Source: Aquisalimonas lutea (GTDB taxonomy: Bacteria; Pseudomonadota; Gammaproteobacteria; Nitrococcales; Aquisalimonadaceae). From it: a stretch of 48,889 bases of DNA. The notes beneath the pieces were generated by a model. It worked only from the letters and a program-made list of their open reading frames with translations, searched no databases and had not been told where the DNA came from. Each line of letters begins with the position of its first letter. The stretch's first letter is position 1. The stretch covers positions 1 to 48,889 of the forward strand of contig NZ_JAUFPK010000005.1 of assembly GCF_030409225.1 (NCBI RefSeq). The letters are read 5' to 3'. This document shows positions 16,133 to 46,448 of the stretch, in pieces. The position numbers were made by a program, and so were the translations under genes.

Positions 16133-16186
16133 GTCGGGGCTGAAGCCCGTCCCACCGGTCCTTGTGGGACGGGCTTCAGCCCCGAT
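16133..16186. repeat. Inverted pair of REP-type palindromes after mdh
   Basis: Two 23-base units, 16133-16155 (minus orientation) and 16164-16186 (plus), face each other across an 8-base loop. Each has the core GGGCTTCAGCCC and the outer GTGGGACG...CCCCGA. They can fold into a hairpin of about 22 base pairs. The pair lies between the convergent mdh and uvrA genes and may stabilise or end both transcripts. The same core recurs at 37.4-37.6 kb and 46.3-46.4 kb. Confidence 0.85.
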
Positions 16187-27201: not shown

Positions 27202-28536
27202 ATGACAAAATCAATGACCCGGAAGCTGGCGGCGGCGGGTCTGGGGCTCATCGTCGGTTTGACCGGCATGGCGACAGCCCAGGCCCAGTCCGAGGAAGCC
27301 CAGTATCTGCCCAGTCTGGTATACCGTACCGGTCCCTACGCCCCTAGCGGTGTGGGCTTTGCCGACGGTTTCTCCGACTACGTTACCCTGGTCAACGAGC
27401 GCGACGGCGGCATCAACGGCGTGCCCATCGAGCTCGAGGAGTGCGAGACCGCCTACTCCAATGACCGGGGCGCGGAATGCTACGAGCGGCTCAAGAACCG
27501 TGGCGACGGCGACGGCGCGACGGTCATGGCGCCGCTGTCCACCGGCATTACCTACACCCTGATCCCGCGCACCCGCGAGGACAATATCGTCCTCCATACC
27601 ATGGGCTACGGGCGTGCCGACGCAGCCTACGGCCCGGTGATGGACTGGGTGTTCATGGTGCCCACCACCTACTGGTCCAGCACCACGGTGACCATGCAGC
27701 ACATCGCCGACCAGGAAGGCGGCTGGGAGAACCTGGAAGGCAAGACCATCGTCCATGCCTTCCACGACTCCGCCTACGGCCGCGAGCCGCTGGAAGTGCT
27801 GCGGGGCTATGCCGAGGAATACGGCTTCACCCTGGAGGAGATGGCCATCTCGCCCCCGGGCGTGGAGCAGCGCTCCGTGTGGACCCAGATCCGCCGCATG
27901 CAGCCCGACTGGATCTCGCTGTTCGGCTGGGGCGTCATGAACCCCACGGCGATTCGTACCGCCAACTCCATGGGCATTGATGTCTCGAAGATCATCGGCG
28001 GCATCTATGCGGCCCAGGATGATGCGGTGGAGCCGGCCGGCAGCGCCGCCGAAGGCTACAAGGCGGTAACCTTCCACGGTCCGGGCAGCGACTACCCTGT
28101 CTACGACGATCTCCAGGAGTACGTCTATGACCCGGGCCTGGCGGCCGGCGACGGCAGCCAGCAGGGCAAGATCGCCTACAACCGCGGGCTGATCAACGCT
28201 GCCTACATCATCGAGGCCTGGCGCCAGGCGCAGCAGGAGTTCGGTGAAGGCGAGGTCATGGGCCGCGAGGAGACCAAGTGGGCCTGGAACCAGCTGACCA
28301 TCACCGAGGAGCGCACCGAGGAGCTGGGCATGAAGGGCCTGATGCCCCCGGTGGACGTGACCTGCAGGGACCACGAGGGTGGCGGCCTGGCCCTGATCCA
28401 GCAATGGAACGGCGAGTCCTGGGAGCAGGTGACCGACTTCATGGAGCCCGACATGGAACGGGTGTTCCCGCTCTACAGGGAATCCGCGCTGGAGTACGCC
28501 GAGAGCGAAGGCGTCGAAGTCAAGGAATGCGACTAG
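27202..28536 (+). CDS. ABC transporter periplasmic substrate-binding protein (HAAT family)
   Basis: The 444-residue protein has an N-terminal signal peptide (basic MTKSMTRK, hydrophobic AAAGLGLIVGLTGMATA) with a likely signal peptidase I site after AQA, near residue 28. The mature part is a type I periplasmic binding fold (LPSLVYRTGPYAPSGVG at the start; KTIVHAFHDSAYGREPL in the middle). It delivers the substrate to the LivHM-like permeases. GGAGGAG at 27189-27195 fixes the start at 27202 over an ATG 15 bases earlier. The protein is longer than LivJ/LivK (about 370), which suggests a non-amino-acid ligand such as an aromatic or acyl acid (inference). Confidence 0.9.
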   Translation: MTKSMTRKLAAAGLGLIVGLTGMATAQAQSEEAQYLPSLVYRTGPYAPSGVGFADGFSDYVTLVNERDGGINGVPIELEECETAYSNDRGAECYERLKNRGDGDGATVMAPLSTGITYTLIPRTREDNIVLHTMGYGRADAAYGPVMDWVFMVPTTYWSSTTVTMQHIADQEGGWENLEGKTIVHAFHDSAYGREPLEVLRGYAEEYGFTLEEMAISPPGVEQRSVWTQIRRMQPDWISLFGWGVMNPTAIRTANSMGIDVSKIIGGIYAAQDDAVEPAGSAAEGYKAVTFHGPGSDYPVYDDLQEYVYDPGLAAGDGSQQGKIAYNRGLINAAYIIEAWRQAQQEFGEGEVMGREETKWAWNQLTITEERTEELGMKGLMPPVDVTCRDHEGGGLALIQQWNGESWEQVTDFMEPDMERVFPLYRESALEYAESEGVEVKECD

Positions 28537-37402: not shown

Positions 37403-37579
37403 GTCGCGACTGACGTCGCTCCTACAGCGGGCCGGGGGGAGGTCTCTTCCGAGACCCGCTGTGGGAGGGGCTTCAGCCCCGACCGCCCCGGCTGGGCGGC
37501 GCTCTGGAAGGTCGCGGCTGAAGCCGCTCCCACAACCATGTGTGCCAGCCGCCGCCGTAGGAGCGACGTCAGTCGCGAC
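37403..37579. repeat. REP cluster 1: four palindromic units in alternating orientation
   Basis: Four 23-base units lie at 37403-37425 (-), 37461-37483 (+), 37511-37533 (-) and 37557-37579 (+). All share the frame GT(A/G)GGAG...palindrome...GAC. The palindromic cores are GACGTCAGTC in the outer units, GGGGCTTCAGCCCC in unit 2 and GCGGCTTCAGCCGC in unit 3. The layout is the reverse complement of the cluster at 46282-46448. No REP-associated tyrosine transposase gene is present in the window. Confidence 0.85.
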
Positions 37580-37642: not shown

Positions 37643-38830
37643 TCAGTCCAACCGCTCCACCGCCACGGCGGTCGCCTCGCCGCCGCCGATGCAGATGGAG
37701 GCCACGCCGCGCCGGAGGCCGTGGCGCTCCAGCGCATTCAGCAGCGTGACCAGGATGCGCGCCCCGGAGGCGCCGATGGGGTGGCCCAGGGCGCAGGCGC
37801 CGCCGTGGACGTTGACCGTGTCGTGGGACAGGCCCAGCTCCTGCATGGCCGCCATGACCACCACGGCGAAGGCCTCGTTGATCTCGTAGAGATCGACGTC
37901 GCCGGCGCTCCATCCCACCTGCTCCAGGAGGTTCCGGGTGGCGCCCACGGGCGCGGTGGTGAACCACTGCGGCTCGCGGGCGTGGCTGGCCTGGCCGCGG
38001 ATGGCCGCCAGGGGCTTGAGGCCGCGCCGGTCCGCCTCGCTGCGGCGCATGAGCACCAGGGCGGCGGCGCCGTCGGAGATGGAGCTGGCGTTGGCGGCGG
38101 TTACGGTGCCCTGCGGGTCGAAGGCCGGCTTGAGGGTGCGCAGCTTGTCGGGGTCGGCGTTCCAGGGCTGCTCGTCGCGGCTAATGGTGCGCTCGCCCTT
38201 GCGCTCGCTGATGGTGATGGGCGTGATCTCGGCCTCGAAGGTGCCGTCCTCGGAGGCCTTGCGGGCCCGCTGCAGGGAGGTCTCGGCGAAGTCGTCCTGG
38301 GCCTCGCGGGTGAAGCCGAAGTGGCTGGCGCAGCGCTCGGCGAACCGGCCCATGAGCTCGCCCTTCTCGTAGGCGTCCTCGAGCCCGTCGAAGAACATGT
38401 GATCGGTGATCCGGCCGTGGCCGAGGCGGTAGCCGCCGCGCGCCTTGTCCAGGAGATACGGGGCGCGGGACATGCTTTCCATGCCGCCGGCGACGGTGAT
38501 GCGGCCGCGGTCCAGGGCCAGGGTGTCGTGGGCGAACATGGTGGCGCGCATGCCGGAGCCGCAGACCTTGCTGACGGTGGTGCAGGGCACGGACAGGGGC
38601 AGCCCGGCGCCCAGGGCGGCCTGGCGGGCCGGTGCCTGGCCCAGGCCGGCGGGCAGGACGTTGCCCATGAACACTTCGTCCACGGTGTCCGCCGGGACGC
38701 CGGCACGCTCCAGGGCGGCGGCGATGCTGCGGCTGCCCAGCTCCGTGGCGCTGAGGGCGGCGACGTCGCCCATGAGGCCGCCCATGGGGGTGCGGGCGCT
38801 GCCGACGATGACAATGGGGTCGTCTTGCAT
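37643..38830 (-). CDS. Acetyl-CoA C-acyltransferase (thiolase)
   Basis: The 395-residue thiolase has all three catalytic residues: Cys90 in VSKVCGSGM, His350 in CALGHPIGASG and Cys380 in SICIGGGEA. It reversibly joins or cleaves acyl-CoA and acetyl-CoA. In this neighbourhood, cleavage of 2-methylacetoacetyl-CoA (isoleucine) or of longer 3-ketoacyl-CoAs is likely. The start at 38830 (MQDDPIVIVGSARTP) is the family start; the open frame upstream is not. A nested palindrome lies upstream of its start. Confidence 0.94.
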   Translation of the reverse strand: MQDDPIVIVGSARTPMGGLMGDVAALSATELGSRSIAAALERAGVPADTVDEVFMGNVLPAGLGQAPARQAALGAGLPLSVPCTTVSKVCGSGMRATMFAHDTLALDRGRITVAGGMESMSRAPYLLDKARGGYRLGHGRITDHMFFDGLEDAYEKGELMGRFAERCASHFGFTREAQDDFAETSLQRARKASEDGTFEAEITPITISERKGERTISRDEQPWNADPDKLRTLKPAFDPQGTVTAANASSISDGAAALVLMRRSEADRRGLKPLAAIRGQASHAREPQWFTTAPVGATRNLLEQVGWSAGDVDLYEINEAFAVVVMAAMQELGLSHDTVNVHGGACALGHPIGASGARILVTLLNALERHGLRRGVASICIGGGEATAVAVERLD

Positions 38831-38901: not shown

Positions 38902-39012
38902 GGCGCGGAGCGGGTACTTTGGTCACGGACACGCTGTAAATACGTCCCTGTACGCTCGACTGCGGCCGTCCTGGCCGCAGACGGTCCGTGACCAAAGCAC
39001 CCGCTCCGCGCC
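38902..39012 (-). repeat. Nested palindrome, copy A
   Basis: Outer 29-base arms 38902-38930 and 38984-39012 are inverted copies with one mismatch. Inside, CTGCGGCC (38960-38967) and GGCCGCAG (38973-38980) form a perfect second hairpin. The remaining core reads, on the minus strand, GAGCGTACAGGGACGTATTT. Size, architecture and core match copy B at 41197-41304 in the opposite orientation. It lies between two minus-strand genes, after the racemase gene and before the thiolase gene. Confidence 0.9.
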
Positions 39013-39106: not shown

Positions 39107-40237
39107 TCAGCAGATTCCCTTGCCCCGCAATTCTTTAATGGTGTTCGCGTCGATGCCCCAATCCGAGAGGGCGGTTTCGGTGTCGGCACCGGGTTCGCGG
39201 GCACCGGTGGTGAGTTCCGGCTGCGTGCGGGAGAAGCGCGGGGCCGGGGCGGCCTGGGTCATGCCGTCGTGGTGGACGAAGGTGCCGCGGGCGCGGTTGT
39301 GGGGGTGCTCCGGGGCTTCGTCCATGTCCAGCACGGGGGCGAAGCACACATCGGTGCCCTCCAGCAGGCGGCACCATTCGTCGCGGCTGCGGGTGGCGAA
39401 CACCGCGGCGAAGCGCTCGCGCATGGCGGGCCAGTTGTGCTTGTTCATCTGCTCGGCGCAGGCCGGCTCATCGGTGAGTTCCAGGCGTTCCAGCAGCTCG
39501 CGGTAGAACTGCGGCTCCAGGGCGCCGATGCTGATGTGCCGGCCGTCGGCGCAAGTGTAGGTGTCGTAGAAGGGCGCACCGCCGTCGAGCAGATTGGTGC
39601 CGCGCTCGCTGGACCATGCGCCTCCGGCCTTCATGCCGTGGAACAGGCTCATGAGGAGTGCCGAGCCGTCGGTCATGGCGCTGTCCACCACCTGGCCGCG
39701 CCCGGATTGCCTCGCCTCGAGCAGGCCGCAGGCGATGCCGAAGGCGAGCATCATGGCGCCGCCGCCGTAGTCGCCCACCAGGTTCAGCGGCGGTACGGGT
39801 CGCTCGCCGGCGCGGCCGATGGGGTGCAGGGCGCCGGACAGGGCGATGTAGTTGAGGTCGTGGCCGGCGGCGCGGGCGAGCGGACCGTCCTGGCCCCAGC
39901 CGGTCATGCGTCCGTAGACCAGGGCGGGGTTGCGCTCCAGGCAGGTGTCCGGGCCCAGGCCCAGGCGTTCCATGACGCCGGGCCGGAAGCCTTCCACCAG
40001 GGCGTCGGCGCGTTCCAGGAGCTTGAGCACGGTCTCGACGCCGGCGGGCTGCTTCAGGTCGACGGTCACCGAGCGCCGCCCGCGGGCGGTAACCGGGTCG
40101 TCCACCGGCAGTGCGCCGGCCGACTTGCGGTCGATGCGCAGCACGTCCGCGCCCATGTCCGCCAGCATCATGGCGCAGAAGGGGCCGGGTCCGATGCCGG
40201 CCATCTCGATGACGCGAATACCCTGCAGGGGGCCCAT
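39107..40237 (-). CDS. Alpha-methylacyl-CoA racemase (CaiB/BaiF CoA-transferase family)
   Basis: The 376-residue protein has His126 (AAGHDLNY), Asp156 (NLVGDYGGG) and Glu241 (GALEPQFY). These match in position the catalytic residues His126, Asp156 and Glu241 of the mycobacterial racemase MCR, which is strong evidence for racemase and not transferase activity. It epimerises 2-methyl-branched acyl-CoA esters so that stereospecific dehydrogenases can act. The start [20 protein letters not shown] is typical. It is divergent from the SDR gene and separated from it by 134 bases. Confidence 0.93.
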
Positions 40238-40371: not shown

Positions 40372-41139
40372 ATGAAGATCGACGAACGCGTATTCATTGT
40401 CACCGGCGGCGCCTCCGGGCTGGGCGAGGCCACGGTCCGCCGTCTGGTCGACGGCGGCGCCCGCGCGGTGATCGCCGACATGAACGAGGATGCCGGCAAG
40501 AAGCTCTCCCACGAGCTCAGCGGCGCCGTGCACTTCGCCCGCTGCGATGTCACCCGGGAGTCCGATGCCCAGCACGCCGTGGATGCGGCCCGGGAGACCT
40601 TCGGTGCCGTGCACGGCCTGGTGAACTGCGCCGGCGTGGGCACGCCGGAGAAGACCCTGGGCAAGGAAGGGCCGCATGATCTGGAGCGCTTCAACAAGGT
40701 CGTCCAGATCAACCTGGTGGGTACTTTCAACATGATCCGCCTGGCGGCGCAGGCCATGACCGAGAACACGCCGGACGCCGAGGGCGAACGGGGCGTGGTG
40801 GTGAACACGGCCTCGGTGGCGGCGTTCGACGGCCAGATCGGGCAGGCCGCCTATGCGGCGTCCAAGGCCGGCGTGGCCGGCATGACGCTGCCCATCGCCC
40901 GGGAGTTCGCGCGCTACGGCATCCGCGTCATGACCATCGCCCCGGGCCTGTTCGAGACGCCCATGCTGCTCGGGCTGCCCCAGGAAGTGCAGGACTCCCT
41001 GGGCGCCAGCGTGCCGTTCCCGCCGCGGCTGGGCCGGCCGGACGAGTACGCCCGGCTGGTGGAGAGCATCGTCGGCAACACCATGCTCAACGGCGAGACC
41101 ATCCGCCTGGACGGCGCCATCCGGATGCAGCCGAAGTAG
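40372..41139 (+). CDS. Type-2 3-hydroxyacyl-CoA dehydrogenase (SDR family)
   Basis: The 255-residue short-chain dehydrogenase has the cofactor motif TGGASGLG at residues 11-18 and NAG in VNCAGVG. The catalytic Ser148, Tyr161 and Lys165 lie in [19 protein letters not shown]. Its pattern ([40 protein letters not shown]) is that of HSD17B10-type enzymes, which oxidise 3-hydroxy-2-methylbutyryl-CoA in isoleucine degradation and other 3-hydroxyacyl-CoAs. TGGAGG precedes the ATG at 40372. Nested palindrome B follows the gene. Confidence 0.92.
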
Positions 41140-41196: not shown

Positions 41197-41304
41197 GGGG
41201 AATCGGGTGCTTCGGTCACGGACCGTCTCCAGCCATGGACGGCTGGAGACGAGCCTACAGGGATGTACTTGCGGCGTGTCCGTGACCGAAGCACCCGATT
41301 CCCC
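41197..41304 (+). repeat. Nested palindrome, copy B
   Basis: The outer 27-base arms 41197-41223 and 41278-41304 are perfect inverted copies. An inner 11-base-pair hairpin (CGTCTCCAGCC at 41224-41234, GGCTGGAGACG at 41241-41251, loop ATGGAC) is followed by GAGCCTACAGGGATGTACTT, 41251-41270. Copy A has the same order with different but still complementary arm and stem bases. It lies between the convergent SDR and acyl-CoA dehydrogenase genes and could end both transcripts. Confidence 0.92.
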
Positions 41305-41348: not shown

Positions 41349-42488
41349 TCAACGCCCGAGAATCGAACGCGCGATGAGCTCCTTCATGATCTCGTTGCTG
41401 CCCCCGTAGATGCGCTGCACGCGGGCATCGACGAAGTCTCTGGAGATCGGGTACTCGCGCATGTAGCCGTAGCCGCCGAACAGCTGCAGGCATTGATCCG
41501 CCACCCGGAACTGCAGGTCCGTGGTGGTGAGCTTGGCGATGGAGGCATTGGTCGTGGTGAGCTCGCCCCGGTTGTACTCTTCCGTGCACTGCCGGACGAA
41601 CGCCCGGTTGACCTGGATCTGTGCCTGGAGGTCCGCCAGGGCGAAGCGCGTGTTCTGCAGGCTGCCGATGGCCTGGCCGAACGCCTTGCGCTCCTGCACG
41701 TACTGGATGGTGCGCTCCAGCATGCCCTCGCACGCCGAGATCGCACCCACCGCCAGCACCAGGCGCTCGCGGGGCAGCTCATTCATGAGATTGGCGAAGC
41801 CCTGGCCCTCGCCGCCCAGGATCTGGTCGGCGCCCACGCGCAGGTCGGAGAAGAACAGCTCCGCGGTGTCCGAGCCGTGCTGGCCGATCTTCTCCAGGCG
41901 GCGGCCGCAGTCGAACCCGGGCAGGGACGTATCGACGGTGAACAGGGTCACCCCGCGCGCGCCGGCATTCGGGTCCGTCTTGGCCGAGAGGATATGGAGA
42001 TCCGCATGATAGCCGTTGGTGATGAACGTCTTCTGGCCGTTGATGACGAACGCGTCGCCGTCGCGCTGGGCGCGGGTCTTCATGCCCTGCAGGTCCGAGC
42101 CCGCCGCCGGCTCCGTCATGCCGATGGAGCCCACCGCCTCGCCCGTGACCATGCGCGGCAGCCAGGTGTGCTTCTGCTCCTCGGTGCCCAGGTGGAGGAT
42201 GTAGGGCGCGACGATATCCGAGTGCACCGACAGGTTGGTGGCCAGGGCGCCGAAACCGCGGCGCGCCACTTCCTCGATGACCACGGCGGACAGGACGAAG
42301 TCGCCGCCGAAGCCGCCGTATTCCTCGGGGACGTCGACGCACAGGAAGCCGTTCTCCCCGAGCCGGTTCCACAGCGTCCGGGGAAAGAGCTTCTCGTGCT
42401 CCCAGGCCTCGTAGTGGGGGGCGACTTCCTTGTCCAGGAAGCGCCCCAGCGTATCCCGGAACAGCTCGATTTCACTGGCATCCAGCAT
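41349..42488 (-). CDS. Acyl-CoA dehydrogenase, long-chain (LCAD)-like
   Basis: The 379-residue flavoprotein starts MLDASEIELFRDTLGRFLDK and contains GMTEPAAGSDLQGMKTRAQR. The C-terminal IYGGSNEIMKELIARSILGR has Gly where medium-chain enzymes have the catalytic Glu. As in LCAD and isovaleryl-CoA dehydrogenase, the base is probably the Glu in ELPRERLVLAVGAISACEGM, a segment that follows the LCAD pattern closely. It should oxidise long or branched acyl-CoA to the 2-enoyl-CoA. The start at 42488 is the family start; upstream sequence is not conserved. It is divergent from the nitroreductase gene. Confidence 0.92.
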   Translation of the reverse strand: MLDASEIELFRDTLGRFLDKEVAPHYEAWEHEKLFPRTLWNRLGENGFLCVDVPEEYGGFGGDFVLSAVVIEEVARRGFGALATNLSVHSDIVAPYILHLGTEEQKHTWLPRMVTGEAVGSIGMTEPAAGSDLQGMKTRAQRDGDAFVINGQKTFITNGYHADLHILSAKTDPNAGARGVTLFTVDTSLPGFDCGRRLEKIGQHGSDTAELFFSDLRVGADQILGGEGQGFANLMNELPRERLVLAVGAISACEGMLERTIQYVQERKAFGQAIGSLQNTRFALADLQAQIQVNRAFVRQCTEEYNRGELTTTNASIAKLTTTDLQFRVADQCLQLFGGYGYMREYPISRDFVDARVQRIYGGSNEIMKELIARSILGR

Positions 42489-46196: not shown

Positions 46197-46281
46197 AGGG
46201 GCTTCCGTCGGCGGATTCGGATATCGATGACGGCGACGCCCCGGCGGCGTCGGCGGTATCGCCTGCGACTCCGGGGCGTTG

Positions 46282-46448
46282 GTCGCGACTGACGTCGCTC
46301 CTACAGTGGACCCGTGCAATGCCGGCCGGATTCCGGTCCCGTAGGAGCGGCTTCAGCCGCGACCTTCCAGAGAGTCTGCTCGCCGGGATGGTCGGGGCTG
46401 AAGCCCCTCCCACAGCTGGCTTTCCGTAGGAGCGACGTCAGTCGCGAC
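46282..46448. repeat. REP cluster 2: four palindromic units in alternating orientation
   Basis: Units lie at 46282-46304 (-), 46341-46363 (+), 46391-46413 (-) and 46426-46448 (+). The unit order (GACGTC type, GCGGCTTCAGCCGC type, GGGGCTTCAGCCCC type, GACGTC type) is the reverse complement of cluster 1. Linkers are partly conserved too (CGACCTTCCAGAG follows the second unit in both when aligned). It lies between two minus-strand genes, in the leader of the DmdC-like gene. Confidence 0.85.

Follow-up and report, generated by a model that had tools for sequence, protein, structure and literature searches.

The window analysed here, a stretch of 48,889 nucleotides from Aquisalimonas lutea (contig NZ_JAUFPK010000005.1, positions 1 to 48,889 of the forward strand), contains two copies of a nested palindrome, termed copies A and B. 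Copy A lies between two genes of the minus strand, encoding a CoA-transferase III (3' end at 39107) and a thiolase (start near 38830). Copy B is found between the convergent genes of a short-chain dehydrogenase (plus strand, end at 41139) and an acyl-CoA dehydrogenase (minus strand, end at 41349). The features are as follows.

38902-39012, minus strand: copy A, complete element, 111 bp of arms plus interior
38984-39012, minus strand: outer arm of copy A, 5' side on the minus strand, 29 nt
38960-38980, minus strand: hairpin 1 of copy A, perfect 8-bp stem CTGCGGCC/GGCCGCAG, loop AGGAC with the first GGA
38941-38952, minus strand: hairpin 2 of copy A, TAC-AGGGAC-GTA, with the second GGA
38931-38940, minus strand: conserved stretch of copy A from hairpin 2 to the 3' arm, TTTACAGCGT
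38902-38930, minus strand: outer arm of copy A, 3' side on the minus strand, 29 nt, one mismatch against the other arm
41197-41304, plus strand: copy B, complete element, 108 bp of arms plus interior

The anatomy given in the preliminary description of this DNA, namely 29-base arms with a single mismatch around a nested perfect hairpin, was recovered, the arms of copy A being 97% complementary and enclosing 53 nt. Read on the minus strand, this interior runs through hairpin 1, GAGC, TACAGGGA, GTA and GCGT and, as had been claimed, aligns with the 54-nt interior of copy B, where identical landmarks stand in the same order between 27-nt arms (41197-41223 and 41278-41304) that are 100% complementary. 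The strand that carries the GGA loops, hereafter the GGA strand, folds as RNA with energies of -87.6 kcal/mol (copy A) and -90.1 kcal/mol (copy B), and for each copy none of 200 dinucleotide shuffles folded as well; the fold predicted for copy B places part of the second GGA in base pairs. A 23-base core, GTACAGGGACGTATTTACAGCGT, has one occurrence in the window at up to three mismatches and none in 100 shuffles. The octamer TACAGGGA has one extra occurrence outside the elements, at 28474, and is therefore not diagnostic on its own. An intrinsic terminator was ruled out because no T run follows either arm in copies A and B, the two copies checked, and a REP of the type seen in the window (GTGGGAGGGGCTTCAGCCCCGAC) because its sequence differs from that of the element; both exclusions had already been made in the preliminary description. 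REP-like palindromes of the GTGGGAGGGGCTTCAGCCCCGAC type lie in the window at 16134-16185, 37460-37534 and 46281-46413.

Copies were searched for by blastn with copy A, and then with a covariance model, R1, built from 19 copies of the same genome (G000). At E <= 0.001 this genome yields 20 full-length copies and a single degenerate one, so the likeness between copies A and B is not due to chance. The wider family that the preliminary description proposed to search for does exist, with R1 matches in 27 of 59 relatives and in 71 of the 370 genomes sampled from the class Gammaproteobacteria, each at least 90% complete; ten candidates were scored per genome in the class-wide scan, and the counts are thus lower bounds. 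Copy number by genome ranges from dozens in some species to none detected in others. The core pattern TACANGGAYGTATTYACRGCGT was found in at least 120 stretches of named genome contigs, and the 80 of these loci that were listed all bear names recognised as Gammaproteobacteria, including Marinobacter, Stenotrophomonas, Microbulbifer, Methylotuvimicrobium, Rheinheimera, Ectothiorhodospira, Aquisalimonas and Yersinia similis. The Y. similis copy has a match, over 67% of its length, in 5 of 5426 E. coli genomes. Carriage by plasmids or phages is not supported, as a Marinobacter copy had no match at E <= 0.001 in either collection. The longest arms among the G000 copies, 37 nt without a mismatch, belong to L038 (G000:C11:511397-511507).

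Covariation within this family is strong. In the alignment of 19 copies from G000, two-sided changes occur at 27 of 40 base pairs and 97.2% of the cells are paired, and none of 500 shuffles reached either value. A second alignment (A5), fitted to the model, comprises 58 copies with E <= 5e-10, for the most part the best one per genome; they come from 53 of 56 loci, the duplicate L053 and the two weaker loci L075 and L076 having been omitted. Here, two-sided changes affect 39 of 40 pairs (34.8 in shuffles) and 877 cells (244 in shuffles), including all 29 arm pairs, all eight pairs of hairpin 1 and two of the three pairs of hairpin 2. The arm sequences differ from copy to copy yet remain complementary, and the stem of hairpin 2 appears as TAC/GTA, TCC/GGA, CCC/GGG or CTC/GAG. 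A further pair joins the base that precedes hairpin 2 to one of the 3' stretch (A5 columns 61 and 79), and the two covary among the 58 copies as C-G (37), T-A (3), G-C (2) and A-T (1), with G.A (13) as the second commonest form. Many copies, strong covariation and a constant core support a structured and probably mobile repeat, as the preliminary description had foreseen for such an outcome.

The loops read ANGGAN. Loop 1 contains GGA in all 58 copies of A5; loop 2 contains GG in all 58, the final A in 56 and the leading A before N in 57, and both loops have GGA in 56 copies. The base N between A and GGA, and the base after GGA, are variable. A parse blind to GGA, applied to alignment A4, read 56 of 78 rows (the other 22 being reverse-strand reads, one false hit and sense copies that the parser missed) and, among these 56, found GGA in loop 1 of 55 rows and in loop 2 of 53. 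The same parse read 92 of 102 rows of alignment A3, whose copies were found by a pattern that itself requires GGA in loop 2, and loop 1 had GGA in 85 rows and lacked it in seven. The spacing from GGA to GGA is 22-25 in all 143 rows, of 199 aligned, where both could be placed. A constant core had thus been rightly recognised, the A and the GGA of the loop being near-fixed, but it had been wrongly assigned to TACAGGGA as a whole, which is a hairpin with a covarying stem.

The arms also carry a strand-specific signal. Mispairs were counted on the GGA strand with equal penalties for G.T and A.C in 153 of 183 copies, the others having arms too short or poor, and G.T(U) mispairs were far more frequent than A.C (147 versus 22). 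The same pattern was obtained with the G000 copies only (10 versus 2), with copies found by pattern, that is, in a model-free manner (81 versus 10 in 66 of 86 matches, 20 being without countable arms), and with copies whose neighbouring genes are both antisense (28 versus 3). Since decaying palindromes predict near equality, the GGA strand is under constraint as a folded single strand, with RNA as the simplest case; pairing as single-stranded DNA, or a strand-biased C-to-T mutation, could also produce the G.T excess. These counts bear on template switching, in which replication would copy one arm onto the other, such that arm covariation would be silent on selection and the core alone would be functional. 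Arm changes are indeed mostly two-sided within one genome, and also between species at the site of copy B, as this process would leave them. However, template switching predicts no preference for G.T over A.C leftovers and does not explain the covariation in the short hairpin 2. We hold it to be quite unlikely as the explanation, although it can operate alongside the main reading developed below.

Comparison of sites between genomes revealed presence and absence of the element between species. First, G001 and G002 carry the element at the site of copy A, which is empty in G004 and holds an unclear remnant in G003; in hairpin 2, G000 has TAC/GTA and both G001 and G002 have CCC/GGG. Second, at the site of copy B the element is present in G002 and absent from G003, G004, G005 and G008. 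At this site the sole interior difference between G000 and G002 is the free base N of loop 2, and the arms differ by three two-sided changes plus one wobble. Third, when 19 regions around the copies of G002 were compared, 8 of the 20 copies of G000 had a same-site counterpart. Hairpin 1 alleles differ at several other sites common to both genomes, which implies that copies swap sequence or are newly inserted, rather than being clean orthologues. Target duplications of 3-26 bp were sought at sites A and B, where the intergenic flanks are too diverged to align, and no usable pair emerged when the named loci were all compared with one another in search of an empty site. Within the genus of G295, the query locus was matched in all 61 genomes, and the intergenic region was extracted from 28 of 30 fetched loci, with states read from printed sequences. 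Arm alleles at this one site vary among the 28 regions, and two short ones (L326 and L328) look empty by length and reading. Also in this genus, L310 resembles two inverted neighbouring copies that have fused and lost hairpin 1, and five loci (L305, L313, L316, L323 and L324) have another palindromic repeat, whole or partial, inserted into the tip of hairpin 1, as though its insertion targeted hairpin loops.

All 20 full copies of G000 are intergenic according to our own gene caller, as are 162 of 163 further copies, counted after removal of reverse-strand duplicates, locus L053 and one false hit. For the 113 further copies with both neighbours called, the element is in tandem sense in 41, tandem antisense in 32, convergent in 24 and divergent in 16 cases. 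With the G000 copies included, 95 of 157 upstream genes are sense (p = 0.010), and tandem genes are sense in 49 and antisense in 37 (p = 0.24). The nearly even orientation means that in many copies an mRNA would bear the TCC strand and not the GGA strand, which speaks against a strict function at mRNA 3' ends and for mobile spread; a simple cis-acting 3'-UTR module is thereby weakened. Another reading is a bidirectional element at mRNA 3' ends. In such a scenario, the long stem would halt or slow exonucleases or transcription from either side, with no involvement of CsrA. The preference for sense upstream genes fits it, as do the gene 3' ends that face 18 of the 20 G000 copies and the very stable stem that RNA folding predicts for both strands of copies A and B; moreover, YPAL, the Yersinia repeat compared below, is reported in the available part of a review to be co-expressed with upstream genes and possibly to affect transcript stability (PMC2229807). 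But a terminating T run is missing behind the arms of A and B, and a barrier requires neither two near-invariant GGA loops at fixed spacing nor strand-specific tolerance of wobbles, which makes this scenario distinctly improbable in our judgement.

A second dispersed repeat of similar design, of about 245 bp, was noticed at L032:1652-1896 (G000:C12:86761-87005) and at roughly 32 other places of G000 (roughly 33 distinct places in total, from 43 match rows), and it is located upstream of 6 of the 20 G000 copies of the element. It has long palindromic arms in the one copy folded. Of 25 loci, 22 show both hairpins with ANGGAN loops on the strand opposite to that of the neighbouring element, and every locus has one or more; the stems are compensated and N is variable. 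No Rfam match at gathering was obtained for this repeat in L032 and L036.

The signature of CsrA (RsmA) binding is A-N-GGA in hairpin loops, with RUACARGGAUGU as the best site, and CsrA tolerates any base at N. Paired ANGGA hairpin loops at regular spacing, a feature of CsrA-binding RNA, are what the element presents, and hairpin 2 of copy A with its preceding base agrees with that consensus at 11 of 12 positions. CsrA (PF02599) was detected in 324 of the 370 class genomes, namely, in 70 of 71 element-positive and 254 of 299 other genomes (Fisher p = 0.0005, relatedness ignored). The one exception, G228, had no CsrA above the cut-off, and a loose cut-off gave a fragment within a 573-residue frame (E = 0.056).

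On balance, we think it somewhat probable that this is a YPAL-type mobile element whose transcript offers a predicted clamp for a CsrA dimer on a long stem. The element would be a gammaproteobacterial relative of YPAL/RU-2, that is, a short palindromic MITE-like repeat spreading between genes and presumably moved by a transposase acting in trans. When transcribed, the GGA strand would form a long stem carrying two hairpins, each with an ANGGA loop, at a spacing of 22-25 nt that fits the bridging of both predicted sites by a single CsrA dimer. We infer CsrA binding by analogy, from the motif and from the distance that such a dimer is known to bridge. The consequence would most likely be that CsrA is titrated in proportion to how much transcription passes through the copies and/or that, in sense copies, the mRNA acquires a CsrA-marked and nuclease-resistant end. 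The portion available of a study of Pseudomonas putida KT2440 describes intergenic sequences at ISPpu8 sites pulled down with Rsm proteins, one of them a 'long palindromic region' downstream of PP_3547 (PMC7937890), which is suggestive of a candidate member of the same family.

The filled and empty sites of copies A and B, the nearly even orientation and the almost exclusively intergenic location are also expected of purely mobile DNA. A transposase would then read the hairpins as folded single-stranded DNA, much as REP hairpins are thought to be read by RAYT enzymes, the GGA loops would be its signal and the resemblance to CsrA sites would be incidental. Strand-specific constraint is compatible with single-stranded DNA too, and YPAL is itself described as mobile, with duplications of 3-26 bp beside its dyads, in the review text available (PMC2229807). 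Against this, the free base falls precisely at the N that CsrA tolerates, in both hairpins as well as in the second, different repeat; wobbles are tolerated and arm changes are compensated at a site kept between species; and no transposase was seen tied to the element in what was a non-systematic look. We therefore regard purely mobile DNA as unlikely and retain the mobile element with a predicted CsrA clamp. A broader proposition, possible but rather doubtful, is that a mobile palindromic repeat across the Gammaproteobacteria serves as a ready-made CsrA-dimer clamp, with copy number setting a distributed CsrA sponge and insertions rewiring transcripts tied to Csr/Rsm. If these repeats, together with YPAL and the small RNA Ysr224 compared below, were one gammaproteobacterial family of CsrA-site carriers, genomes would hold dozens of good CsrA sites outside the 5' leaders scanned by target predictors, and transposition would make the CsrA sink larger in some species than in others.

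With regard to known systems, the closest is YPAL. The RU-2 sequence, printed and equated with YPAL in the accessible part of its source (PMC2759123), has 3 differences in 167 aligned bases from the Y. similis copy (L172), and both are thus the same Yersinia element. The interior of copy A aligns with RU-2 over 54 positions with a score of 58, against 33 or less in 500 letter shuffles of A, and that of copy B scores 53 over about 54 positions. This 54-base alignment is end to end, through CGTC, a hairpin with an A.GGA loop, CGAGCC, TACATGGATGTA and TTTACGGCGT, and YPAL is likewise dispersed and palindromic, with filled and empty sites, in the available text of both sources (PMC2229807; PMC2759123). 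Judged from these alignments, the element is homologous to YPAL/RU-2, a named mobile repeat, and is consequently not a new kind. The preliminary description, which could name no described family, was wrong on this point. The differences are that YPAL measures ~167 bp and has arms and flanks of its own, compared with 111 bp (A) and 108 bp (B); that the arms are unrelated; and that YPAL was described from Yersinia and Erwinia, whereas the element occurs in many genera. Counts of YPAL given in the part available of another study reach 144 in Y. enterocolitica, with a few matches in E. coli (PMC2847712).

The Yersinia copy also corresponds to a described small RNA, Ysr224 (RF02770), on the opposite strand. 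L172, a locus recovered both by pattern and by model, scored 126.5 bits against this Rfam model (gathering 70) at an overlapping place and was the sole locus to reach the gathering cut-off among 18 scanned with Rfam; copy A scored 23.8 bits on the plus strand, under gathering. The Rfam model represents the TCC strand and has no GGA loops, these being on the opposite, GGA strand of the element. Of ten weak Rfam rows for copy A, Ysr224 was the only meaningful one; the others (plant and animal microRNA precursors, Y RNA) were far under gathering and probably reflect chance similarity of long hairpins. In the excerpts available, Ysr224 is tabulated among the 20 most prevalent sRNAs (PMC9029176), and several of its copies are differentially expressed in Y. 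ruckeri (PMC12112432). Ysr224 stands as a described sRNA with unexpectedly many copies, and YPAL as a repeat of Yersinia and its close kin. Within the open-licence literature, no paper was found that treats YPAL together with CsrA, and the accessible portions of papers on CsrA and repeats did not name this element; an Alcanivorax sRNA paper, in its accessible part, does not present its CsrA-related sRNAs as a repeat (PMC9788540).

TwoAYGGAY RNA (RF01731) resembles the element in its two hairpins with GGA loops, and was proposed as a CsrA binder from this motif; unlike the element, it is described, in the text available, with neither long variable palindromic arms nor dispersed repetition (PMC4333381). 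It was absent from the matches of copy A at E <= 10 and, at gathering, from the 18 loci. CGTC-tagged REPs share the tag, CGTC or TGTC standing directly 5' of hairpin 1 in most copies of the element (A5 columns 30-33, n = 58: C in 48 and T in 10, G in 56, T in 54, C in 45). As far as their description was available, these REPs are 20-40 bp long, with a stem that starts with A-T pairs and a tail that is mostly CCA (PMC3733652). In the element, by contrast, the first stem pair is G-C in 31, U-A in 14, A-U in 9 and C-G in 2 of 58 copies, and the tail is TCG in 35 of 58, with CCA outside the eight commonest tails. The same source, in its available part, places CGTC-1 dimers of Halothiobacillus neapolitanus within 41-bp palindromes followed by 'attcacg' (PMC3733652); this motif follows here too, and these palindromes are possibly the same element.

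CsrB/CsrC and RsmX/Y/Z are sRNA genes with their own promoters and several to many GGA sites, which act as CsrA decoys. By analogy, the element resembles them in placing hairpins with GGA loops on one RNA, and differs in being a repeat with two predicted sites and no shown promoter. What is new with respect to all these systems is a broad gammaproteobacterial spread together with paired, predicted sites of the CsrA/RsmA type, which we put forward as a new and testable view of YPAL-like repeats.
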